A stretch of 64,000 bases of DNA from Conexibacter arvalis (GTDB lineage: Bacteria; Actinomycetota; Thermoleophilia; Solirubrobacterales; Solirubrobacteraceae). The stretch covers positions 1 through 64,000 of the forward strand of contig NZ_JACHNU010000002.1 of NCBI RefSeq assembly GCF_014199525.1, in the 5' to 3' direction. Below, piece after piece: positions 33,396 to 44,528 of the stretch; the first letter of the stretch is position 1; each line of letters opens with the position of its first letter. The notes under the pieces are model-generated. The model did no database searches and was not told the DNA's origin. It was given only the letters and a program-made list of their open reading frames with translations. The translations under genes and the position numbers were made by a program.

Positions 33396-34238
33396 GTGGC
33401 GCACGACACCGCAACGCTGGAGGCCCGTTCCTGGGCCCATTGGACGACGCCCGCGTGGGCGACCGTCGACGGCCTGGAGACGGCCTACCGGCGCGAGGGC
33501 GAGGGCGAGCCGCTGCTGTTCCTGCACGGCGCCGGCCTGACGCGCATGTGGCAGCCGCTGTACGCGCGGCTCGCCGAGTCGTTCGACACGATCGTGCCCG
33601 AGCATCCCGGCTTCGGCGACACCGCGATGCCGGAATGGCTCGACGGGATCGACGACCTCGTCCTCCACTACGACGCCTTCCTCGACGGCCTCGGCGTCGA
33701 GCGCGTCCACCTCGTCGGCCACTCGCTCGGCGCGTGGATCGCGGCGAGCCTCGCGCTCACCTACCCGCGCCGCTTCGCATCGCTGACGTTGATGGCGCCG
33801 ATCGGCCTGCGCGTCCCGGAGGCGCCGCCGGCCGACCCCTTCCGCTGGTCGCCGGAGGTCGCGCTGGAGACCCTCTTCAGCGGCGTCGGCGAGCGCTACG
33901 CCGAGTACCTCGAGCAGGCCGGCGAGGTCGAGGACACGCTCCACGCCTACGGCGAGTCGATCACCTTCGCGCGGCTGACCTGGAACCCCCGCTACGACGT
34001 CCGGCTCGACCGCCGCCTCGCGCGCGTCGCCGCGCCGACGCAGGTGATCGGCTTCGCCGACGACCGCTTCGTTCCGGCCGCCCACCCGCGCCGCTGGGCC
34101 GAGCTGATTTCGGGCGCGACCCACGTCGAGCTGGAGGGCGTCGGCGACGAGCCGGCCTCCCACCTCGCCGTCGTCCAGCAGCCCGACCGGATCGCCGAGC
34201 TGATCGCCGCCCACGCGCACCGCAACGCGCTCGCGTGA
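33396..34238 (+). CDS. Alpha/beta hydrolase
   Basis: A 280-residue alpha/beta-hydrolase: LLFLHGAGLTRMW, nucleophile elbow GHSLGA (about residue 112), acid in FADDRFVP and a C-terminal histidine in PASHLAVV. It parallels the hydrolase at 21524-22354 segment by segment (ATVDGLETAYRREGEGEP against FIEVDGLRTAYRRDGAGEP), so they are paralogues of one pathway. The GTG at 33396 follows GGGAGGA by 5 bases and clears the operator. Downstream it overlaps a Gly/Ala-repeat gene by four bases. Confidence 0.86.
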   Translation: MAHDTATLEARSWAHWTTPAWATVDGLETAYRREGEGEPLLFLHGAGLTRMWQPLYARLAESFDTIVPEHPGFGDTAMPEWLDGIDDLVLHYDAFLDGLGVERVHLVGHSLGAWIAASLALTYPRRFASLTLMAPIGLRVPEAPPADPFRWSPEVALETLFSGVGERYAEYLEQAGEVEDTLHAYGESITFARLTWNPRYDVRLDRRLARVAAPTQVIGFADDRFVPAAHPRRWAELISGATHVELEGVGDEPASHLAVVQQPDRIAELIAAHAHRNALA

Positions 34239-34732
34239 GGCTCGTCGTACGCGCGAGTGCGAGCGCGGGCGGTGCCGACGGCGCGGGCCCGGCGGGCGCG
34301 GGCGGTGCCGCGGGCGCGGCGGGCGCGGGCGGAGCGGGCACGGCGGGCGCGGGCGGAGCGGACGCGGCGGGCGCGGGCGGAGCGGACGCGGCGGGCGCGG
34401 GCGGAGCGGGCGCGGGCGCGGGCGCCGGCGGTGCTGACATGCGGCACGCGACCGTCGCGCTCGAAGAGCCCGACGACTTCGGCCGCTTCGCCGTGATCGA
34501 CGGCACCGGCGACGACGCGGGGCTCGGCGAGGCGATCGCCGGACACGGCCGTCTCACCGACGGCGGCGACGTGTTCGTCGCGATCGACGCGCTGCTGGCG
34601 CTCGCCGGCGAGCGCGCCGACGACCCCGCCTGGCGCGCCGGCTTCGACCAGATGGTCGCGTTCGCCCGCGGGCATGGCTGGCTCGACGAGGCGGGCACGG
34701 CGGTCCGCGCCCACGTCGAGCCGCTCGGCTAG
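34235..34732 (+). CDS. Protein with Gly/Ala-repeat N-terminus and unknown C-terminal domain
   Basis: A 165-residue frame that begins at a GTG overlapping the hydrolase stop (GTGA). Residues 10-67 are low-complexity Gly/Ala with repeated GAGGADAA units, produced by 24-bp DNA repeats. Residues 69-165 (MRHATVALEEPDDFGRFAVIDG, then LTDGGDVFVAIDALLALAGERADDP and WRAGFDQMVAFARGHGWLD) form a compact domain that I do not recognise. An ATG at 34439 would give the C-terminal domain alone (97 residues) but has no clear ribosome site. The overlap favours the longer form. Confidence 0.6.
   Translation: MRLVVRASASAGGADGAGPAGAGGAAGAAGAGGAGTAGAGGADAAGAGGADAAGAGGAGAGAGAGGADMRHATVALEEPDDFGRFAVIDGTGDDAGLGEAIAGHGRLTDGGDVFVAIDALLALAGERADDPAWRAGFDQMVAFARGHGWLDEAGTAVRAHVEPLG
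34319..34414 (+). repeat. Four 24-bp tandem repeats inside the Gly/Ala gene
   Basis: Four head-to-tail 24-bp units at 34319, 34343, 34367 and 34391 each begin GCGGGCGCGGGCGGAGCGG and differ only in the last five bases. Each keeps the reading frame and encodes eight residues of the pattern A-G-A-G-G-A-x-A. Such units expand and contract by slippage. Confidence 0.75.
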
Positions 34733-34979: not shown

Positions 34980-35960
34980 TCAGGCGGCGGCGGGATCCGG
35001 GCCGCCGACGACCACGCCGACACTCGCGACGGTGACGAGCGCGACGCCGGCGACCTGCGCGGCGCCGAGGCGCTGACCGAGCGCGACGAGGCCGACGAGC
35101 GCGGCGACCGCGGGGTCGAGGCAGAGCAGGACGCTGACGACGCGCAGGCCGGCCCGCCGCAGCGCGATCAGCTCGCAGGCGTACGGCAGCGCGACGCCGA
35201 GCAGGCTCAGCAGCGCGACGAGCGCGAGGTCGCCCGGCCGCGGCTCCCGCGCGAGCGCGTCGAGCGCGAACGGCAGTGTCACGACGGCGCTGACCGCGAC
35301 GGCGAGCGCGAGCCCGTCGAGGCCGGCCGAGTCGTCGCCGACCCGTCGCGCGCTGAGGAGGTAGCCGGCCCAGCAGGCCGCCGAGCCGAGCGCGAATGCC
35401 GCGCCGGCGAGCGAGTCGAGCGCGAGGCCGCCGCAGACGAGCAGGACGCCGGCGACGGCGAGCGCGACCCACGCCAGGTCGCGCGGGCGGCGCGAGCGGC
35501 TCGCGGCGACCAGCAGCGGACCGCAGAACTGGATCGCGACCGCGGTGCCGAGCGGGATGCGGTCGATCGCGCAGTAGAGCCCGACGTTGGCGCCGGCGAT
35601 CGACAGTCCCATCCCGCCGATCCCGAGCCAGGCGCCGCGCGACCGTCGGCCGATCCCGCCGCGCAGGAGGCCGGCGAGCATCAGCGCCCCGAAGGCGAAG
35701 CGCAGCCCGCTCGTGCCGAGCGCGCCGAGCGTCTTGAAGACCGAGGTCGCGAGCGCCGACGAGGTCTGGATCAGCAGCGACGCGCTCAGCACGAGCGCGG
35801 CGCCGGAGACCTCGCCCGCGCCACCCGCACCGCGCCCGCCGCTGGCGGTTCCTGCACCGCCCTCCCCGCTCGCCACGGCGGCGCCGGAGCCGTCGCTCCG
35901 GCGCCGCGTGGGCCGTCCGTCGCTTCCCTGCCGGGCGTCGAGCGCCCGGTCGATCGTCAC
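34980..35960 (-). CDS. EamA-family (drug/metabolite) transporter
   Basis: A 326-residue protein with a ~45-residue hydrophilic, Gly/Ser-rich N-terminal tail and about 10 membrane helices in two EamA repeats. Signatures are FKTLGALGTSGLRFAFGALML, IPLGTAVAIQFCGPLLVA and RRAGLRVVSVLLCLDPAVAALVG, close to RhtA-type threonine/homoserine exporters. The GTG at 35960 overlaps the stop of the M24-ureohydrolase fusion gene (GTGA), so it is the last gene of that operon. It may export a pathway product such as an amine or amino acid. Confidence 0.83.
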   Translation of the reverse strand: MTIDRALDARQGSDGRPTRRRSDGSGAAVASGEGGAGTASGGRGAGGAGEVSGAALVLSASLLIQTSSALATSVFKTLGALGTSGLRFAFGALMLAGLLRGGIGRRSRGAWLGIGGMGLSIAGANVGLYCAIDRIPLGTAVAIQFCGPLLVAASRSRRPRDLAWVALAVAGVLLVCGGLALDSLAGAAFALGSAACWAGYLLSARRVGDDSAGLDGLALAVAVSAVVTLPFALDALAREPRPGDLALVALLSLLGVALPYACELIALRRAGLRVVSVLLCLDPAVAALVGLVALGQRLGAAQVAGVALVTVASVGVVVGGPDPAAA

Positions 35961-38224
35961 CGCGCCCGCGCGGTCGCGATCAGGCAGCAGATCTCGAACA
36001 GCAGGTTCGCGCCGCTGAACTGCGTCAGGCCGGTCGGGTCGAGCGACGGGGCGATCTCGCAGACGTCGCCGCCGATCACGTCCATCCCGCTCATCGAGCG
36101 CAGGATCACCTGCGAGTCGCGCATCGACAGGCCGCCGGGCTCGCGCGCGGCGGTGCCGGGCGCGTGCGACGGGTCGAGGCCGTCGATGTCGTAGGTGACG
36201 TACACCGGCGCGTCGCCGATCACCTCGCGGATCCGCTCGATCACCGCCGCGCGGCCGATCTCCTCGTACTCGTCGTAGGTGATCGCGGTGAAGCCGGCGT
36301 CGACCCCGTACTGGATGTCGTCGTCGCCGAAGCGGGTCCCGCGCAGGCCGATCTGCACGACGCGGCGCGGGTCGATCAGCCCCTCCTCGACCGCCCGCCG
36401 CATCAGCGAGGCGTGCGTGTCCCTCTGGCCGAAGAAGCGGTCCTGGATGTCGGCGTGGGAGTCGAACTGGACGACGCCGAACGGCGCCGCGTCGCGCAGG
36501 CCGCGGAAGATCGGCAGCGTCGTCGAGTGGTCGCCGCCGACCGCCAGCGGCGCGACGCCGTGCTCGCGCAGCTCGCGCACGTACCGCTCGACCGCCGCGA
36601 ACGACCCCGGCACGTCGAGCACGTTGACCGGCGCGTCGCCGACGTCGGCGACGTTGACGAGGTCGAACGGGCTCGTGCCGGTCGACGGGTTGACGCGCCG
36701 GATCGCCCGCGACGCCTCGCGCACGGCCGCCGGCCCTTCCCGCGTGCCGCCGCGGAAGGTGGCGTTGTCGAACGGCACGCCGAAGACGCCGACGTCGACG
36801 TGCTCCAGGCTCTCCACGCGCGGCAGCCGCATGAAGGTCGCGACCTCGGCATAGCGCGGGATCACGGCCGAGTCGAGCGGCTGCAGGTCGGGACGCCCCG
36901 CCTGCGCGTCCGCGAAAGGCGAGGCGGAGGGCGACGCGGCGGTCGCGACCGGCTGCTCCGCCCGTGCCGGCCCCGCCTGCGCGCCCGCCTGCGCCTCCCC
37001 TGCCGCCCGCGCCGGCCCCGCCGCCCCGCCGATCACGCGCAACTCCTCCGGGAAGCGGACCGACAGCGGCTGGTGGCCGCCGTCGGCGACGACGACCTCC
37101 TCCTCGCCGACCAGCCAGCCGACGCCGGCGAACTCGCCGTTGGGCTCGAGGCAGAGCACCTCGCCGGCGCGCAGCGGCGTCGGGTCGTGCGGCGACAGCG
37201 ACGGCGGCTCGGGCATCTCCTGCCCGAGCCCGTGGCCGGCGCGGGCGTAGATCGACGGCGCCTCGCCGAGCAGCGCGGCGGCCAGCTCGGCGACCGGCGT
37301 GCCGGCCGCGACGACCTCGCGCGCACGCCGCAGCGCGACGTTGAGCTGTTCGTAGGCGGCCTGCTGCTCGCGCGTCGGCGGCGCGCTCGCGTAGACGCGG
37401 TTGAAGTCGGCGAAGTAGCCGCCGCCGATCTGCAGGCAGAGGTCGGCGAACAGCAGCTGCCCGCGCTCCCACGGCCGGTCGGTCGGACCGCCGAGCGGGG
37501 CGCGGTCGACGCCGGCGATGATGCCGCTGTAGCCGATCCGCTCGGCGCCGGCGTCGTAGGCGCAGCGCCGCAGCAGGCGGCCGAGGTCGCGCTCGCTCAT
37601 GCCGACGCGCGCCTGCGCCGCGAACGCCTGGTGGGCTTCCTCGCAGATCTCCGCGGCATGTCGCATCCGCTCCAGCTCCCACGGCGACTTGACCCGCCGG
37701 GCCCGCCAGATCAGCCCGGAGGCGTCGCTCACCTGCCCGTCGAACAGGCGCAGGCGGTCGAAGGCGTGCAGCGTGAAGCCGGGAATGAAGTGCCACTTCT
37801 CCTCGATCCCGATCGCCGCGACGTCGCGCTCGTGTAGCAACGCGACGAGCTCCTCGACCGCCGGCACCTGGTAGTCGACCTGGACGCCGTCGGCGTCGAG
37901 CACCGCCGGCCCGACGTACGGCCGGACGGCGACGTCGATCGCGTCCAGCTCGACGCTCGTCGCCTCGCCGACGTGGCAGACGACGGTCGCCGTACCGTCG
38001 GCCAGCAGCACGACGACGAACGGCTTCGAGCGGTTGCCGAAGAAGGTCGTCTCGTAGCCGGTCAGGTAGTGGGCGTTCGCCTCGCTGGCGACGACGAGTG
38101 CGTCGAGGCCCCGTTCTCTCAGCAGCCGCGCGAGCGTCGCACGGCGCGCCGCGACGTCGGCCTCCAGGCCGCGCCGGTCGAGCGCGCGGCTGGCCGCGAA
38201 GCCTGGCGTGTCGATCGTCGTCAT
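35957..38224 (-). CDS. Fusion of M24 (creatinase/Xaa-Pro peptidase-like) and agmatinase/arginase-type ureohydrolase
   Basis: A 755-residue frame with two complete enzymes. Residues 1-396 are an M24 metallohydrolase: N-terminal creatinase domain, then metal ligands in LLFADLCLQIGGGYFADFNR (two Asp), RAGHGLGQEM (His), LCLEPNGEF (Glu) and VGEEEVVV (Glu). Residues ~397-440 are an Ala/Pro/Gly linker. Residues ~441-755 are a ureohydrolase with manganese ligands AVGGDHST, QFDSHADIQD and TYDIDGLDPSHAPGT. There is no stop between them. At residue 397 a GTG (37036) follows GGAGGAG by six bases, so a separate 359-residue ureohydrolase could also be made. The gene overlaps both neighbours by four bases. 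Confidence 0.87.
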   Translation of the reverse strand: MTTIDTPGFAASRALDRRGLEADVAARRATLARLLRERGLDALVVASEANAHYLTGYETTFFGNRSKPFVVVLLADGTATVVCHVGEATSVELDAIDVAVRPYVGPAVLDADGVQVDYQVPAVEELVALLHERDVAAIGIEEKWHFIPGFTLHAFDRLRLFDGQVSDASGLIWRARRVKSPWELERMRHAAEICEEAHQAFAAQARVGMSERDLGRLLRRCAYDAGAERIGYSGIIAGVDRAPLGGPTDRPWERGQLLFADLCLQIGGGYFADFNRVYASAPPTREQQAAYEQLNVALRRAREVVAAGTPVAELAAALLGEAPSIYARAGHGLGQEMPEPPSLSPHDPTPLRAGEVLCLEPNGEFAGVGWLVGEEEVVVADGGHQPLSVRFPEELRVIGGAAGPARAAGEAQAGAQAGPARAEQPVATAASPSASPFADAQAGRPDLQPLDSAVIPRYAEVATFMRLPRVESLEHVDVGVFGVPFDNATFRGGTREGPAAVREASRAIRRVNPSTGTSPFDLVNVADVGDAPVNVLDVPGSFAAVERYVRELREHGVAPLAVGGDHSTTLPIFRGLRDAAPFGVVQFDSHADIQDRFFGQRDTHASLMRRAVEEGLIDPRRVVQIGLRGTRFGDDDIQYGVDAGFTAITYDEYEEIGRAAVIERIREVIGDAPVYVTYDIDGLDPSHAPGTAAREPGGLSMRDSQVILRSMSGMDVIGGDVCEIAPSLDPTGLTQFSGANLLFEICCLIATARAR

Positions 38225-39420
38225 CGGTCGCTCCGCCCGTCGCAGAGCCGCACGATCAGGTCGGCGTAGATGCGGCTGGCCCGCACCAGCTGGTCGATCG
38301 GGACGTGCTCGTCGCGGGTGTGGGCGAAGTCCTCGCTGCCGGGCCCGATGCCGATCGTCGGGATGCCGGCGGCGCCCATGAACGTCGCGTTGACGCCGAA
38401 CCGCCAGGTCTTCAGGCGCGGCTCGCTCCCCGTGACGGCGGCGATCGCGGCGCGGCCGGCGTCGACGAGCGGGTGGTCGGCCGGGATCGACATCAGCGGG
38501 TAGACGTTGACGAGCGCGACCTCGGCGGCCGTGCCGGTCTCGCGCCCGACCCGCTCGACCAGCGCCCTGATCTCGGCGAGCGCCGACTCGGGCGTCTCCG
38601 ACGGCACGTAGCGGCGGTCGATCCGGATCGTGCAGCCGCTCGGGACGACCGCGACCTCCGCGCCGGGGTCGGCTCTGACGTCGGTGACGGTGACCGTGCC
38701 GCGGCCGTACAGCTCGTCGGCGGGCAGCGTCCGCGGCATCTGCTCCAGCGCCCGCAGGAAGGGGATCGCGCGGTAGACCGCGTTGACGCCGTCCTCCGGC
38801 GTCGAGGCGTGGCTGGAGCGGCCCTTCACCGTCACGTCGACCTGGATCTTGCCGCGGTGGCCGAGGTACAGGTCGAGCTGGGTCGACTCGCCGCTCAGCC
38901 CGTACTCGGCGCGGATCCCGCGCTCCAGCAGCGCCGGCACGCCGAGCGGCGAGTCGGTCTCCTCCTGCACGTCGGCGGTGAACACGTAGGTCCCGTCGCG
39001 CAGCTGCTGCGGGTCGAGGAATGCGGCCGCGTAGGCGCCGGCCGCGACGTTGGCCTTCATGTCGCACGAGCCGCGGCCGCGGATCGCGAAGCCGCTGCCG
39101 CCGTAGGCCGCCGCGTCGACGATCTGCGCGCCGTACGGGTCGTCCATCGCCGCCGGCGGGACGTGGTCGACGTGGCCGTTGAACATCAGCCGGTTCGGCC
39201 CGCTGCCGATCCGCGCGACGACGTTGCCGTGCTCGTCGCGCTCGATCTCGCGGTAACCGAGCGTCTCCAGCTCGGCGACGAGCAGGTCGGCGACGGCCGC
39301 CTCCTCGCCGGGGAGGCTCGGCGTCGCGACGAGCCGCTGCGCGAAGCGGACCAGCCGCCGCTCGACTTCGTCGAGGCCGCTCAGCGCCGCCGCGGCGAGG
39401 TCCGGTGCCTGCGCGCTCAT
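38221..39420 (-). CDS. M20-family metallohydrolase (ArgE/DapE type)
   Basis: A 399-residue dinuclear zinc hydrolase. Metal and catalytic positions are NGHVDHVPPA (His, and Asp two residues on), RGRGSCDMKANVAAG (bridging Asp), VQEETDSPLG (general base Glu followed by Glu ligand) and PGSEDFAHTRDEHV (last ligand His). The dimerisation domain is at about residues 180-290. Members remove acyl or carbamoyl groups from amino acids or cut dipeptides. Its ATG overlaps the aminotransferase stop and its stop overlaps the fusion gene start, so all are co-translated. Confidence 0.88.
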   Translation of the reverse strand: MSAQAPDLAAAALSGLDEVERRLVRFAQRLVATPSLPGEEAAVADLLVAELETLGYREIERDEHGNVVARIGSGPNRLMFNGHVDHVPPAAMDDPYGAQIVDAAAYGGSGFAIRGRGSCDMKANVAAGAYAAAFLDPQQLRDGTYVFTADVQEETDSPLGVPALLERGIRAEYGLSGESTQLDLYLGHRGKIQVDVTVKGRSSHASTPEDGVNAVYRAIPFLRALEQMPRTLPADELYGRGTVTVTDVRADPGAEVAVVPSGCTIRIDRRYVPSETPESALAEIRALVERVGRETGTAAEVALVNVYPLMSIPADHPLVDAGRAAIAAVTGSEPRLKTWRFGVNATFMGAAGIPTIGIGPGSEDFAHTRDEHVPIDQLVRASRIYADLIVRLCDGRSDR

Positions 39421-40742
39421 GCGCCCTCCCCTCCCCGTTCCAGCTCGGCGTCGGCGACCGCAAGGCCGTGGTCGAGCGCGGCGGCGATCGCCTTGATGTC
39501 GTCGGCCTCGGCGATCAGCGGCGGCGCGATGAACAGCGAGGTCTGCTCGCCGCTGGTCGTGATCAGCACGTCGGCCTCCAGCGCCCGCGCGGCGACGCGG
39601 CTGGCGAGCGGCTCGGCCTCCTCGCCCTTCCACGTGCGCCAGTCGGGCCCGTGCAGCTCGACGGTCCAATGCAGGCCGCGCCCGTCGATCCGGCGGACCG
39701 ACGGGTGGGCCTCGGCGATCAGCCGCATCTGCTCCTCCATCACCGCGTCGAGCTCGGTCGCGCGCTCGTGGACGCGGTCGCGCTCGGCGACCTTCAGGTG
39801 GGCGCGGATCGCGGCGACCTCGATCGGATGGCCGCGGAAGGTGCTGTAGGTCTGCCACGCCTTGCCCGACAGCCGCTCCAGCATCTGCTTGGAGATCAGC
39901 AGCGCGCCGGCCGCCGCGCCGCCGGCCGCCAGCGACTTGCCCATCGTCACCATGTCGGGCCGCGAGTCGCCCCTGTGGAACTGCTGCCAGCCGCCGACGC
40001 GGCCGAAGCCGGTGACCGTCTCGTCGGCGATCCAGATCGTCCCCGTCTCGCGGGCGATCGCGGCGACGCGGTCCTGGTAGTGGGGCGCGTGGTAGATGCC
40101 GCCCTGGCTGTAGTCGAGGATCACCGCCGCGCTCTTGGAGAGCTTCTCGGTCGCGTCGGCGACCCAGCCGTCGTCGGCGAGCGTCGGGTCGGCCTGGCCG
40201 GTGATCCGCCCGCTCGTCGGCGCGGCGATCGTGTGCACCGGCACCATCGGCGGCGCCGGCGCGACGCCGCCCTCCAGCGACGAGAGGCCGCCGTGCCACT
40301 GGGGCTGGACGGTCATGTCGCGGGCGAGGCCGGCGCCGCCGTGGTAGGCGCGCAGGCGGGTCGCGAGGTCGCGCCGGCCGGTCAGCGCCTGGCAGAGCGC
40401 GAGCGCGACGTCGTTGGCCTCCGAGGCGCTGATGAAGAAGCGGACGGCGCCGATCCACTCCTCGTCCTGGAAGCCGATGCGGATCAGGTCCTCGGCGGCC
40501 GCCTCGCGCTCCCACCAGCCCCAGCCCTCGTTGACGACGGGGGCGTCGGCCGCGGCGCGGACGGCCTCGACGATCTCCGGATGGCGGTGGCCGAGCGGGG
40601 CGGCGGTGTTGCTGGCGTCGATGACGCGCCGCCCGTCCTTCAGCTCGAAGTGGATCCCGTCGCCGCCGACGACCGTCGGCACCGCCGCCTTGCCGGCGGT
40701 GAGGCTGGTCGACAGCAGGCGGGTCGGTGCGGTCGTCGCCAT
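39417..40742 (-). CDS. Class III (ornithine/omega-amino-acid type) aminotransferase
   Basis: A 441-residue PLP enzyme. The lysine that binds PLP is in VTMGKSLAAGG; the phosphate/ring region has FFISASEANDVALAL and WIADETVTGFGRVGGW (Asp-Glu pair before the lysine). Class III enzymes act on omega-amino groups, 4-aminobutyrate, diaminobutyrate, beta-alanine, taurine or glutamate-1-semialdehyde. The start at 40742 overlaps the tautomerase stop (TGATG). In this operon it may transaminate an amine released by the hydrolases. Confidence 0.88.
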   Translation of the reverse strand: MATTAPTRLLSTSLTAGKAAVPTVVGGDGIHFELKDGRRVIDASNTAAPLGHRHPEIVEAVRAAADAPVVNEGWGWWEREAAAEDLIRIGFQDEEWIGAVRFFISASEANDVALALCQALTGRRDLATRLRAYHGGAGLARDMTVQPQWHGGLSSLEGGVAPAPPMVPVHTIAAPTSGRITGQADPTLADDGWVADATEKLSKSAAVILDYSQGGIYHAPHYQDRVAAIARETGTIWIADETVTGFGRVGGWQQFHRGDSRPDMVTMGKSLAAGGAAAGALLISKQMLERLSGKAWQTYSTFRGHPIEVAAIRAHLKVAERDRVHERATELDAVMEEQMRLIAEAHPSVRRIDGRGLHWTVELHGPDWRTWKGEEAEPLASRVAARALEADVLITTSGEQTSLFIAPPLIAEADDIKAIAAALDHGLAVADAELERGGEGA

Positions 40743-40930
40743 CAGATCCGCGCCTTGCCGCCGAAGCCCCACTGGGGTCTCGGCACGCCGATCAGCACGA
40801 CCTCGGTCTCGCGACCGACCTGCTCGCCGAACGTGTCGGCCATCGCCTTGGTGATGCGCTCGATCAGCTCGGCGGTCTTCTCGGGGGACTCCCAGCGGGT
40901 GTCGAATGCCTTGACTTCGATGAACGGCAC
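40742..40930 (-). CDS. 4-oxalocrotonate tautomerase family protein
   Basis: A 62-residue protein starting with GTG-CCG, so that after removal of fMet the N-terminus is PFIEVKAFDTRW with the catalytic Pro1. The length equals the classical 62-residue tautomerase. AGGAG lies 11 bases upstream. A GTG three codons earlier (40939) would bury Pro1 and is therefore rejected. Family members shift keto-enol double bonds or act as dehalogenases. It lies between the importer genes and the aminotransferase, suggesting that a keto or enol acid is formed in this pathway. Confidence 0.85.
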   Translation of the reverse strand: MPFIEVKAFDTRWESPEKTAELIERITKAMADTFGEQVGRETEVVLIGVPRPQWGFGGKARI

Positions 40931-40961: not shown

Positions 40962-41735
40962 TCAGGCCCGCGTCTCCGCGGCGGTCTCGTGGATCAGCTC
41001 GAGGATCTCGCGCTTGTAGTCGGCGAACTCGGGCGTCGTGAGGACCTCGGGGTCGCGCGAGCGCGGCAGGTCGATCACGACCTCCTTGCGCAGGCGCCCC
41101 GGCCGGGGTGACATGACGTAGACGCGATCGGCGAGGAAGACCGCCTCGTCGATGTCGTGGGTGACGAAGGCGATCGTCCGCCTCCGCTGCTCCCACAGGT
41201 TGGTGAGGAAGCGCTGGGCGCCGCTGCGGGTCAGCGCGTCGAGCGCGCCGAACGGCTCGTCCATCAGCAGCACGTCGGGGTCGTTGGCGATCGCGCGCAC
41301 GATCGCGACCCGCTGCTGCATGCCGCCCGACAGCTCTGACGGATAGGCGTCGGCGAACTCCGACAGCCCCATCTGCGCCAGCAGCTCGTCCGACTGCCCG
41401 TGGCGCTCCTTCGCCGGCGTGCCGGCCAGCGACGGGCCGAACTCGACGTTCTCGCGCACGCGCAGCCACGGGTAGAGCGTGTAGCTCTGGAAGACCATGC
41501 CGCGGTCGGGGCCGGGGCCGGTCACCGGCCGCCCGCCGACGAGCGCGGCGCCCTCGGTCGGCGGCTCCAGGCCCGCGATGACGTTCAGCAGCGTCGACTT
41601 GCCGCAGCCCGATCCGCCGACGATGCAGCCGAACTCCCCGTCGGGGATCGTCAGCGAGACGTCGTCGAGGGCGAGCACGTCGCGGCGGTCGGCGTTGTAG
41701 ACCTTCGTGACGCGGTCGATCTGGATGGCGCCCAT
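40962..41735 (-). CDS. ABC importer ATPase, nitrate/taurine/sulfonate type
   Basis: A 257-residue ATPase: Walker A GGSGCGKST, Q-loop VFQSYTLYPWL, signature ELSGGMQQRVAIVRA, Walker B VLLMDEPFGALD and H-loop VTHDIDEAV. The phrase YTLYPWLRVRENVEFG is typical of the SsuB/TauB/NrtD group. The ATG at 41735 overlaps the permease stop (TGATG). It energises the importer whose permease and binding protein are encoded just upstream. Confidence 0.92.
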   Translation of the reverse strand: MGAIQIDRVTKVYNADRRDVLALDDVSLTIPDGEFGCIVGGSGCGKSTLLNVIAGLEPPTEGAALVGGRPVTGPGPDRGMVFQSYTLYPWLRVRENVEFGPSLAGTPAKERHGQSDELLAQMGLSEFADAYPSELSGGMQQRVAIVRAIANDPDVLLMDEPFGALDALTRSGAQRFLTNLWEQRRRTIAFVTHDIDEAVFLADRVYVMSPRPGRLRKEVVIDLPRSRDPEVLTTPEFADYKREILELIHETAAETRA

Positions 41736-42616
41736 CAGCGACGGCCTTTCGCGTAGGGGAACAGGCGGCGGTGGAGCAGGCGGAACAGCGCGTCGCTGAC
41801 GAGGCCGAGCGCCCCGATCGTGAGGATCCCGGCGATCACCGTCTCGCTGTCCATGTAGCGGCCGGCGTTGAGGATCGAGTGGCCGATCCCCGTCTCGGCG
41901 GAGACGAGCTCGGCGACGATCAGGTAGGTCCACGCCCACCCCATCGCGATCCGCAGGTTGTCGATCACGCCCGGCCAGCAGGCCGGCAGCAGCACGCGCG
42001 TGAAGACCTGGCGGTTGGAGGCGCCGAGCGTGTAGGCGATCGACAGCAGGTTCTTCTGGACGTTCGCCGACACGTCGGCGACGAGCAGCGTCAGCGGGAA
42101 GAAGACGCCCATGCAGATGACGGCGACCTTCTCGGTCTCGTCGATGCCGAACCAGATGATGAACAGCGGGATGAACGCGGTCGCGGGCATGAAGCGGACC
42201 GCGGCGACCAGCGGCTCGATGAACGCCTGCACCGCGCGGAAGGAGCCGATCGCGATGCCGAGCGGGACGGCGACGACCGCCGACAGCGCGAAGGCGATCA
42301 GGATCCGCCGCGTGCTCGACCAGACGTCGCCGGCGAAGCCCTCGTTCGCGAACAGCTGGTAGAGCCGGTCGGCGGTCGCGCTCGGCGTCGGCAGGAAGAG
42401 GTCGTCGACCAGCTCGCCGTAGGAGACGATGCTCCAGAGCGCGAGCACGAGCAGGAAGCAGCCGCTCGTGAGCGCGAGCGCGAGCGGGCGCGAGATCGGC
42501 TCCTTCGGCCGCATCGCGGTGCTGAGGCGGGAGCGCCGGGCCCGCAGCGGAAGCTGCGGGCCGGGCGCCGTCGCGGCCGTGCGATCGGCCGCGTCGCGGG
42601 CGTGCGTCTCAACCAT
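41735..42616 (-). CDS. ABC importer permease, nitrate/taurine/sulfonate type
   Basis: A 293-residue permease with about six membrane helices after a ~45-residue hydrophilic tail. The EAA loop reads YTLGASNRQVFTRVLLPACWPGVIDNLRIAMGWAW, as in SsuC/TauC. It overlaps the binding-protein gene by eight bases and the ATPase gene by one. No unusual feature beyond the N-terminal tail. Confidence 0.92.
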   Translation of the reverse strand: MVETHARDAADRTAATAPGPQLPLRARRSRLSTAMRPKEPISRPLALALTSGCFLLVLALWSIVSYGELVDDLFLPTPSATADRLYQLFANEGFAGDVWSSTRRILIAFALSAVVAVPLGIAIGSFRAVQAFIEPLVAAVRFMPATAFIPLFIIWFGIDETEKVAVICMGVFFPLTLLVADVSANVQKNLLSIAYTLGASNRQVFTRVLLPACWPGVIDNLRIAMGWAWTYLIVAELVSAETGIGHSILNAGRYMDSETVIAGILTIGALGLVSDALFRLLHRRLFPYAKGRR

Positions 42617-43628
42617 TGCCGAGGTACTGGGGGTCGAGCGCGTCGGTCGCCTTCACGGCCGTCGAGACGTCGCCTATCTCGCTCCAGAAGCGGCCGGCCT
42701 CGTCGGCGACGGCGTACAGCGGGCCGGGCGCGTCGGCCGTGCCCATCAGTCTGCGCGCCTCCGCGGAGGTGTAGAACTTGATCGACTCGAGCTGGTCCTC
42801 GATGTCGCTCGCTCTCGTGTCGAGGCCGCGCGACATGATCTCGATCGCCTCCTTGGGGTTGGAGCGCAGGAACTCGATCGATCTGTCCCAGCCGGCGATC
42901 GCGGCGCGGACGGCGTCGGGGTTGTCCTCGGCCCACTCCCTGCCGAGCGCGATCGTGTCGACGATCACGTCGGGGTAGTCCTTCGTCGAGGCGAGCACCG
43001 TGCCGCCGCTTTCGGCCGCCTGGTCGAGCCACGGCTGCCAGGTCGCGGCGGCCGGGACTCTGCCGGCGACGAACGCCGAGCCGGCGGCGGAGGGATCGAG
43101 GTTGCGCGCGGTGATGTCGTCGAGGCTCATCCCGTTTCTCTGCAGCGCGTACGCGAGCAGGAACTGCGTCGTCGTGCCCTCCTGGACCGCGACCTCTCTG
43201 CCTCTCAGATCGGCGACCGTGCTCATGCCGTCGCCGCCGACGACGCCGTCCGCCCCGTCGGAGGCGTCGGTCACCATCACGTTCACGACCGGGACGCCCT
43301 TGGCGATCGTGTTGATGACCGTGTCGAGCGTCGTGGCGAAGCCCTCGAGCTTCCCGGCGCGGACCGCGACGCCGCGCTGCAGCGCGTCGTCGCCGACGAC
43401 CGTCGGCCGCAGGTCGACGCCGGCCTCCTCGAAGAAGCCCTTCTCCTTGCCGATGAAGTACGGGCCGTAGCCCGTGTAGCTCGAGATGCCGAGCCGCAGC
43501 ACCGGCTTGTCGCCCGATGCGGTGGACGCGCCGCCCGACGACTCGCCGCTGCTGCCGCATGCCGTCAGGGCAGCGGCCGAAGCGAGGGCGAGCGCAAGCG
43601 CCGCGAACCCACGGAAACACCTTCTCAT
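42609..43628 (-). CDS. ABC importer substrate-binding lipoprotein, nitrate/taurine/sulfonate type
   Basis: A 339-residue lipoprotein. The signal peptide ends in the lipobox LTACGSS; the binding domain starts VLRLGISSYTGYGPYFIGKEKGFFEEAGVDL, the standard NMT1/SsuA opening. GAGGA precedes the ATG at 43628. Its ligand is unknown. Arginine codons include 10 AGA/AGG of 21 by hand count, like the other two lipoproteins here. It is the first gene of the operon, divergent from the GntR gene. Confidence 0.9.
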   Translation of the reverse strand: MRRCFRGFAALALALASAAALTACGSSGESSGGASTASGDKPVLRLGISSYTGYGPYFIGKEKGFFEEAGVDLRPTVVGDDALQRGVAVRAGKLEGFATTLDTVINTIAKGVPVVNVMVTDASDGADGVVGGDGMSTVADLRGREVAVQEGTTTQFLLAYALQRNGMSLDDITARNLDPSAAGSAFVAGRVPAAATWQPWLDQAAESGGTVLASTKDYPDVIVDTIALGREWAEDNPDAVRAAIAGWDRSIEFLRSNPKEAIEIMSRGLDTRASDIEDQLESIKFYTSAEARRLMGTADAPGPLYAVADEAGRFWSEIGDVSTAVKATDALDPQYLGNG

Positions 43629-43693
43629 TGAACCGTCCTCTTTCTCGGGGATTAGGGGGGCGGTCTCCTCTGGGCGCACACGCTAACAGGATT

Positions 43694-43784: not shown

Positions 43785-43853
43785 TTTCGTGGCGGGCGTG
43801 CGTTAGGGTATTCCGCGATGGCACCTCCGCGCAGGCCCAGAAAGGGAGCCGAC

Positions 43854-44528
43854 GTGCTCGCGTTCGACCGCGTCGATCGCCCGTCGCTCGCGGACATGGC
43901 CCACGCCAGCATCAGCAGGTCGATCCTCGCCGGCGAGGTGCCGCCGGGCACGCAGCTGAAGGAGACCCACCTCGCCGACCAGCTCGGCATGAGCCGCGCG
44001 CCGATCCGGGAGGCGTTCAAGCGGCTCGCCGACGAGCACCTCGTCGTCGAGCGCCCGCGCTACGGCGTCTTCGTGCGCGAGTTCGACGCCGACGACATCG
44101 CCGACATCTACAACCTGCGCGTCGCGATCGAGACGACCGCGGCGCGCCTCTTCATCCGCGCCGGCGCGTCGACCACCCCGCTGCGCGCGCTCGTCGACGA
44201 GATGGAGGCGGCGGCCGGCAGAGGCGACACCGAGGCCGTCGTCGACGCCGAGGTCCGCTTCCACCAGACGCTCTGCGACCTCTGCGGCAACGGCTACGTC
44301 AGCGCCGTCTTCCGCAACCTCCAGGGCCCGATCCACATGGCGATGGGGATGGACGACCGCAACTACGTCGACCTCGACGAGATCGTCCACGAGCACGACC
44401 CCGTCGTCGACGCGCTCGAAGGCGGCGACGAGCAGGTCGCCGTCGCCGTCATCGCCGAGCACATCACCTCGTCAGTCGCCTCCGTGATCGAGCGCCTCGG
44501 CGGCGACCCGGGCCGGATCCTCGACTGA
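43854..44528 (+). CDS. GntR-family transcriptional regulator (FadR/FCD subfamily)
   Basis: A 224-residue regulator. The winged helix is at residues ~12-75 (DMAHASISRSILAGEVPPGTQLKETHLADQLGMSRAPIREAFKRL, in part). The C-terminal FCD domain carries the metal-binding residues in IYNLRVAIETTAARLF (Asp/Arg region), VRFHQTLCDLCGN (His) and AVIAEHITSS (His). GTG at 43854 is chosen because AAGGGAG lies 5 bases upstream; an in-frame ATG at 43818 is the alternative and may be leaderless. It is divergent from the importer/tautomerase operon, which it most likely controls. Confidence 0.87.
   Translation: MLAFDRVDRPSLADMAHASISRSILAGEVPPGTQLKETHLADQLGMSRAPIREAFKRLADEHLVVERPRYGVFVREFDADDIADIYNLRVAIETTAARLFIRAGASTTPLRALVDEMEAAAGRGDTEAVVDAEVRFHQTLCDLCGNGYVSAVFRNLQGPIHMAMGMDDRNYVDLDEIVHEHDPVVDALEGGDEQVAVAVIAEHITSSVASVIERLGGDPGRILD

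Follow-up and report, generated by a model that had tools for sequence, protein, structure and literature searches.

The window analysed here, the first 64,000 nucleotides of contig NZ_JACHNU010000002.1 of Conexibacter arvalis (NCBI RefSeq assembly GCF_014199525.1, forward strand), contains at positions 35957-38224 one long open frame in which an M24 peptidase-like enzyme is followed by a ureohydrolase, and the locus raises the question of whether the two enzymes are truly joined in one polypeptide and what such a polypeptide would do. It is a minus-strand frame that runs from 38224 to 35957 through 755 codons and a stop codon, with no internal stop in the translation; the plus strand over the same positions contains an in-frame stop. 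An earlier note on this DNA had described a 755-residue frame carrying the five M24 metal ligands and all manganese ligands of the ureohydrolases, joined in frame, and the analysis confirmed this description and added the strand. The gene is a genuine, unusual in-frame fusion of known enzyme families. In what we regard as the fairly probable reading of the sequences, it encodes an M24 hydrolase, a linker and a ureohydrolase in one 755-residue polypeptide, which arose by the joining of two cluster genes within an operon for the catabolism of guanidino compounds.

The assignment of the gene (35957-38224) was based on translation, on Pfam and on a single best match in its own genome. As deduced from the Pfam matches, a Creatinase_N domain occupies residues 27-178 (37691-38146; PF01321, 2.6e-12) and a Peptidase_M24 domain residues 185-379 (37088-37672; 4e-29), whereas the arginase-family ureohydrolase domain comprises residues 445-755 (35960-36892), with the Arginase match at 477-746 (1e-76). 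All three matches are well above the cut-off. The two enzymes are separated by a linker of 46 residues (399-444; 36893-37030) that is rich in Ala, Gly, Pro, Arg and Gln. None of the six reading frames across its 138 bases contains a stop, and shuffling these bases leaves an open frame in 80% of cases, so that an open linker is weak proof of a fusion. The fusion is convincing because neither domain is truncated and because the ureohydrolase half lacks a start codon of its own: codons 398 to 453 include no in-frame ATG, GTG or TTG, and the ancestral start has therefore been lost. Additionally, the gene overlaps both of its neighbours by 4 base pairs (bp), the M20 gene on one side and the EamA gene on the other, which is the pattern expected for a tight operon. 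Gly/Ala/Pro-rich low-complexity tails or inserts were also observed in several proteins nearby (34235-34732, the N-terminus of 34980-35960, and the linker itself at 36893-37030; e.g. AGAGGAGAAGAGGAGTAGAGG), and the linker may be one of these local low-complexity expansions.

How the fusion may have arisen can be seen from L028, the most closely related cluster, which is carried by a contig from a different Actinomycetota genome (metagenome-assembled genome, MAG, SZAS-11) and in which the same genes are present in unfused form. The identities between the window and L028 are 61% for the M24 enzyme, 72% for M20, 72% for the ureohydrolase, 57% for the aminotransferase, 49% for GntR and 37% for EamA; the identities of the window and L028 proteins to outgroups are alike, and neither half of the fusion is unusually fast-evolving. 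The gene order M20-M24-EamA is the same in L028 and in the window operon, with the L028 EamA homologue directly after the M24 gene, and the L028 ureohydrolase is a separate gene beside the GntR regulator, on the other strand from M20-M24-EamA. The L028 M24 protein ends in ..LRVIG at fusion residue 399 or just before, i.e. at the start of the linker, and the L028 ureohydrolase begins with MPEFQPIDSS, its Met aligning with fusion residue 444, the last of the linker. Since L028 has both genes separate, with ends that match the limits of the linker, the fusion would represent the joining of two cluster genes. Judged from this alignment, the ureohydrolase gene is here placed at the M24/EamA boundary and has lost its start codon. 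The fusion is thus best read as two genes from one catabolic operon, joined in frame, a reading that rests more on the comparison with the unfused L028 than on the open linker.

Two alternatives concern the gene itself. An assembly or base-call error could have erased a stop between two ordinary neighbouring genes and, with the linker open in six frames, a single error would be enough to join them; this is very improbable, however, as the ureohydrolase would then be left without a normal start in codons 398-453, both halves are complete and flanked by 4-bp operon overlaps, and the source genome is 99% complete in 18 contigs. The other alternative, proposed in the earlier note, is that a free ureohydrolase is produced alongside the fusion from an internal start. 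As the note had stated, a GTG (codon 397, first base 37036) lies right at the junction, with GGAGGAG at 37043-37049 and a 6-nucleotide spacer (37034-37049, minus strand), and it is the sole candidate start ahead of the ureohydrolase domain. However, when the 52 genes of the window, rather than the whole genome, were taken as background, 8 of their 568 internal ATG or GTG codons in frame were preceded by a well-spaced Shine-Dalgarno match of six bases, equal or similar to the one at the junction, and the internal start does not rise above this chance background. Moreover, both elements have a coding role: GGAGGAG contributes two consecutive Glu residues to the tail of M24, and the GTG a Val that is shared with L028 (..LRVIG). 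Initiation at codon 397 would leave all of the linker on the free ureohydrolase as a 47-residue tail, a feature absent from the homologues seen. Such a product is possible, but nothing favours it, and the proposal that the locus yields two products was not upheld; we regard it as unlikely.

The search for further cases was extended to 60 close relatives, in which no second M24-ureohydrolase fusion was found, and to 398 genomes of the class, 395 of the phylum and 145 other genomes of the family, where none was found either at a threshold that would miss strongly diverged cases. The close-relative, class and phylum sets together comprise at least 764 distinct actinobacterial genomes. No second fusion was found in 72,556 plasmids, and inspection of M24 and ureohydrolase genes lying 5-7 kb apart in three genomes (G041, G009 and G002) revealed no fusion there. 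A literature search for an M24-ureohydrolase fusion returned no described case, in agreement with the statement in the earlier note that no enzyme of this architecture was known, and searches for clusters of ectoine hydrolase with agmatinase and of Xaa-Pro peptidase with agmatinase returned nothing. As far as the sampled genomes and plasmids show, the fusion is unique.

The source genome contains 12 M24 and 6 ureohydrolase genes, among which a second, unfused pair was identified (L038 8771-11038; contig C1, about 1700770-1703037). An 819-codon open frame at this pair (L005) was considered as a fusion and rejected, because the M24 and ureohydrolase genes are separate, with 3 bp between them. 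The neighbouring genes encode a class III aminotransferase, a DAO amino-acid oxidase, an aldehyde dehydrogenase (ALDH) and a Glu/Leu dehydrogenase, and the locus looks like a separate cluster for amidine or guanidine catabolism. With 218 bits (cut-off 575) its M24 protein is DoeA-like; the metal His has been lost from it, and its identity to the M24 half of the fusion is no more than about 22-23%, which makes this an independent pairing. Under random placement, two same-strand M24-ureohydrolase pairs within 2.5 kb would be expected with a probability of about 6e-4, a figure to be read with the fact that the second pair was noticed after the fusion had drawn attention.

All manganese ligands are present in the ureohydrolase half (H566, D588, H590, D592, D679 and D681). 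When it was compared to the PDB using phmmer, the nearest solved structures were GpuA (3nip, 1.4e-85) and GbuA (3nio, 5.5e-75), ahead of the agmatinases (1e-50 or weaker), the arginases and guanidine hydrolase, with 7esr at 8e-32. As part of the same fairly probable reading, this half would be a manganese ureohydrolase of the guanidino-acid type. Agmatinase was rejected on curated cut-offs (170 against 174.3 bits for TIGR01230, and 228 against 302 bits for PRK02190). Names in this family call for caution, given that a human enzyme formerly named agmatinase, which is nearest to GbuA, hydrolyses guanidino acids, whereas agmatine hydrolysis by it was not detected (PMC9772407). An unusually large set of about a dozen ureohydrolase-family places was observed in G765, a Rhodospirillaceae MAG (the genome of L029).

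The five metal ligands of the M24 half (D261, D273, H331, E360 and E374) align with those of prolidase and aminopeptidase P, but the second active-site His of the M24 peptidases (HExP) is absent and is replaced by Pro338; at this position Pro is found in the window and in L028, and Thr in the alphaproteobacterial relatives. The active site of creatinase lacks the metal ligands. With the metal ligands kept and the HExP His lost, the names "creatinase" and "peptidase" are both doubtful for this half. The M24B Xaa-Pro peptidase label was questioned on these grounds, creatinase was rejected because the metal ligands are present and no creatinase model was among the NCBIfam matches, and the suggestion in the earlier note that this half is creatinase-like in function found no support. 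Ectoine hydrolase DoeA/EutD was likewise rejected (58 against 575 and 42 against 613 bits, NCBIfam cut-offs). We infer that the M24 half is a small-molecule hydrolase; the dimethylsulfoniopropionate lyase DddP is an M24-fold metalloenzyme with a function other than that of a peptidase (PMC4108388). The M24 half belongs with a non-canonical branch, alphaproteobacterial in our sample, in which the metal ligands are kept, and a search of 385 genomes from the class that includes the Rhodospirillaceae MAG gave, at the threshold used, relatives of only 29-35% identity. M24 genes of this branch were also observed on rhizobial plasmids (L040 8905-10077, L059 8860-10077 and L041 8983-10083), next to genes for diaminopropionate ammonia-lyase, an amino-acid ATP-binding cassette (ABC) transporter and a Zn-hydrolase, or next to Ehu-type transporter genes; the L040 and L041 proteins lack the HExP His, and their "Xaa-Pro peptidase" name is doubtful.

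The fusion gene is embedded in a minus-strand operon. Upstream of it lie genes for an M20-family metallohydrolase (DapE/ArgE/YgeY-like; 38221-39420), a class III aminotransferase (39417-40772, with a 4-bp overlap with the M20 gene), an SsuB-like ABC transporter ATPase (40962-41735; 53% identical to L033), an SsuC-like permease (41735-42616; 47% to L033) and a substrate-binding protein of the NMT1/SsuA family (42609-43679), and an EamA-family transporter gene (34980-35960) follows it. A GntR/FCD regulator gene (43818-44528, plus strand) is divergent from the operon, so that the order read from GntR is SsuA-, SsuC- and SsuB-like importer, class III aminotransferase, M20, fusion and EamA. A comparable set is found in L033 (9302-19848, Pararhizobium qamdonense plasmid p4), which encodes an SsuABC-type importer, a ureohydrolase, an NTF2-like protein, a class III aminotransferase, GntR, M20, a 2-ketoarginine decarboxylase (by annotation) and a flavin adenine dinucleotide (FAD) oxidase, and a Rhodococcus plasmid carries ureohydrolase, aminotransferase and M20 genes together. 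In L028 a thiamine diphosphate enzyme scores 545 against a cut-off of 500 for the NCBIfam family of 5-guanidino-2-oxopentanoate (2-ketoarginine) decarboxylase. Based on this recurrent set of importer, ureohydrolase, aminotransferase, M20 and decarboxylase across clusters, the window operon, which represents a recurrent, unnamed cluster, probably serves guanidino-acid catabolism. The guanidino chemistry suggested in the earlier note thereby gains support, of an indirect kind, from the proximity of the ureohydrolase half to GpuA/GbuA and from the decarboxylase of L028.

In the pathway that we propose, the ABC importer would take up a guanidino or amidino compound, and a linear guanidino acid would be released when the M20 enzyme and the M24 half cleave, by hydrolysis, an amide, peptide or ring amidine bond. 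The ureohydrolase half would then split urea off this acid, and the class III aminotransferase would deaminate the resulting omega-amino acid; GntR would control the operon, and EamA may move a metabolite across the membrane. The proposal starts from the observed frame, complete domains, metal ligands, operon and unfused cousin, and from the lack of a second fused case in the sample; we infer from them the substrate, the order of the steps and the activity of each half. Several observations weigh against it. The ureohydrolase half has FDSHAD where GpuA/GbuA have FDAHSD/VDAHAD, and THASL where they have THGTP/AHGTT. These FDSHAD and HAS variants, which are common to the window and L028 ureohydrolases, lie beside the active site, and the substrate may therefore differ from those of GpuA/GbuA. 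The aminotransferases of Pararhizobium and of the window share only 23% identity. A 2-ketoarginine decarboxylase gene is absent from the operon, and the best score in the source genome is 331 against the cut-off of 500 bits; because no gene of this genome exceeds the cut-off, its pathway may start from another compound. Finally, an AlphaFold model (the fusion plus three relatives) reached a mean predicted local distance difference test (pLDDT) score of 47, too poor for use.

The same set of enzyme classes could also serve an ectoine-like route, with ring opening of a cyclic amidine by M24, deacylation by M20, a diamino acid as the substrate of the aminotransferase and an amidine, instead of a guanidine, as that of the ureohydrolase. 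This would follow the enzyme-class logic of DoeA/EutD, DoeB/EutE and DoeD (PMC5924519), and M24 homologues with like motifs do lie in Rhizobiales beside Ehu-type transporters, or beside diaminopropionate ammonia-lyase and Zn-hydrolase. The 58 bits of the M24 half, however, are far from the DoeA cut-off of 575, the half retains a metal His which is missing in the DoeA-like paralogue of the same genome, and the operon showed neither EutABC nor EutE-family genes, all of which makes this route improbable. Still less probable is a degenerate, non-catalytic M24 half retained for oligomerisation or regulation. The replacement of the HExP His by Pro and the existence of non-peptidase members of the M24 fold would agree with it, but the five metal ligands are kept in both the window and L028, the GHGLG, GYFADF.R and EEE motifs are conserved between them at 61% identity, and relatives at about 30% retain the pattern, with Thr in place of Pro338.

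In general, the fusion of two genes strongly suggests that their products cooperate. A bifunctional enzyme on a new guanidine-catabolic route, whose non-peptidase M24 half would release a guanidino acid for its own ureohydrolase half to split, is a tentative extension of the guanidino-acid reading; if true, the fusion would be a Rosetta-stone link to the substrate of the M24 branch. The stricter version, in which the M24 half opens or cleaves a guanidino or amidino precursor and passes the product straight to the ureohydrolase half, so that channelling is the very point of the fusion, seems rather improbable to us. The association of M24 with ureohydrolase genes in this genome, as one fused and one adjacent pair, goes beyond chance, and an analogue exists in ectoine degradation, where EutD, the hydrolase, and EutE, which acts after it, form a bimodule with transient contact (PMC8739950). 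Against it, the genes are unfused in L028, the fusion was found once only, and the 46-residue low-complexity linker gives no indication of a docked interface. Most likely, the fusion secures equal dosage and co-localisation of the two enzymes; channelling is possible but not needed. On the guanidino-acid reading, the fusion links a branch of M24 enzymes named "Xaa-Pro peptidase", but devoid of the peptidase His, to guanidino-acid breakdown. It thereby offers a testable substrate class for these probably misnamed enzymes, which also occur in Rhizobiales, and draws attention to an unnamed cluster for guanidine catabolism that recurs with ureohydrolase, class III aminotransferase, M20 hydrolase and importer genes.

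Compared with known systems, the ureohydrolase half is 45% and 42% identical over the full domain to the 3-guanidinopropionase GpuA (3nip) and the guanidinobutyrase GbuA (3nio) of Pseudomonas aeruginosa, respectively, and shares with them the manganese ligands and the GGDH, DxHxD and DxD motifs; it has Phe at the position of GpuA Tyr157 and GbuA Met161, and it is fused, whereas GpuA and GbuA are stand-alone proteins. The M24 half is 28-35% identical to the alphaproteobacterial branch (Rhizobiales and others; L040, L052-L056) named "Xaa-Pro peptidase family" and has in common with it GYFxDFxR, GHGLG, EE at the last ligand and the lack of the HExP His, although the members of that branch are stand-alone and have other neighbour genes. 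With DoeA/EutD it shares the M24 fold, and in their pathway a deacylase and a class III aminotransferase follow. The unfused cluster L028 differs from the window operon by the addition of the 2-ketoarginine decarboxylase and an FAD oxidase, and by an ABC importer of a different type. Finally, the arginine transaminase pathway has a guanidinobutyrase-type ureohydrolase and an aminotransferase in common with the window operon, and its decarboxylase is found in the cousin clusters L028 and L033, whereas that pathway includes neither an M20 nor an M24 step.

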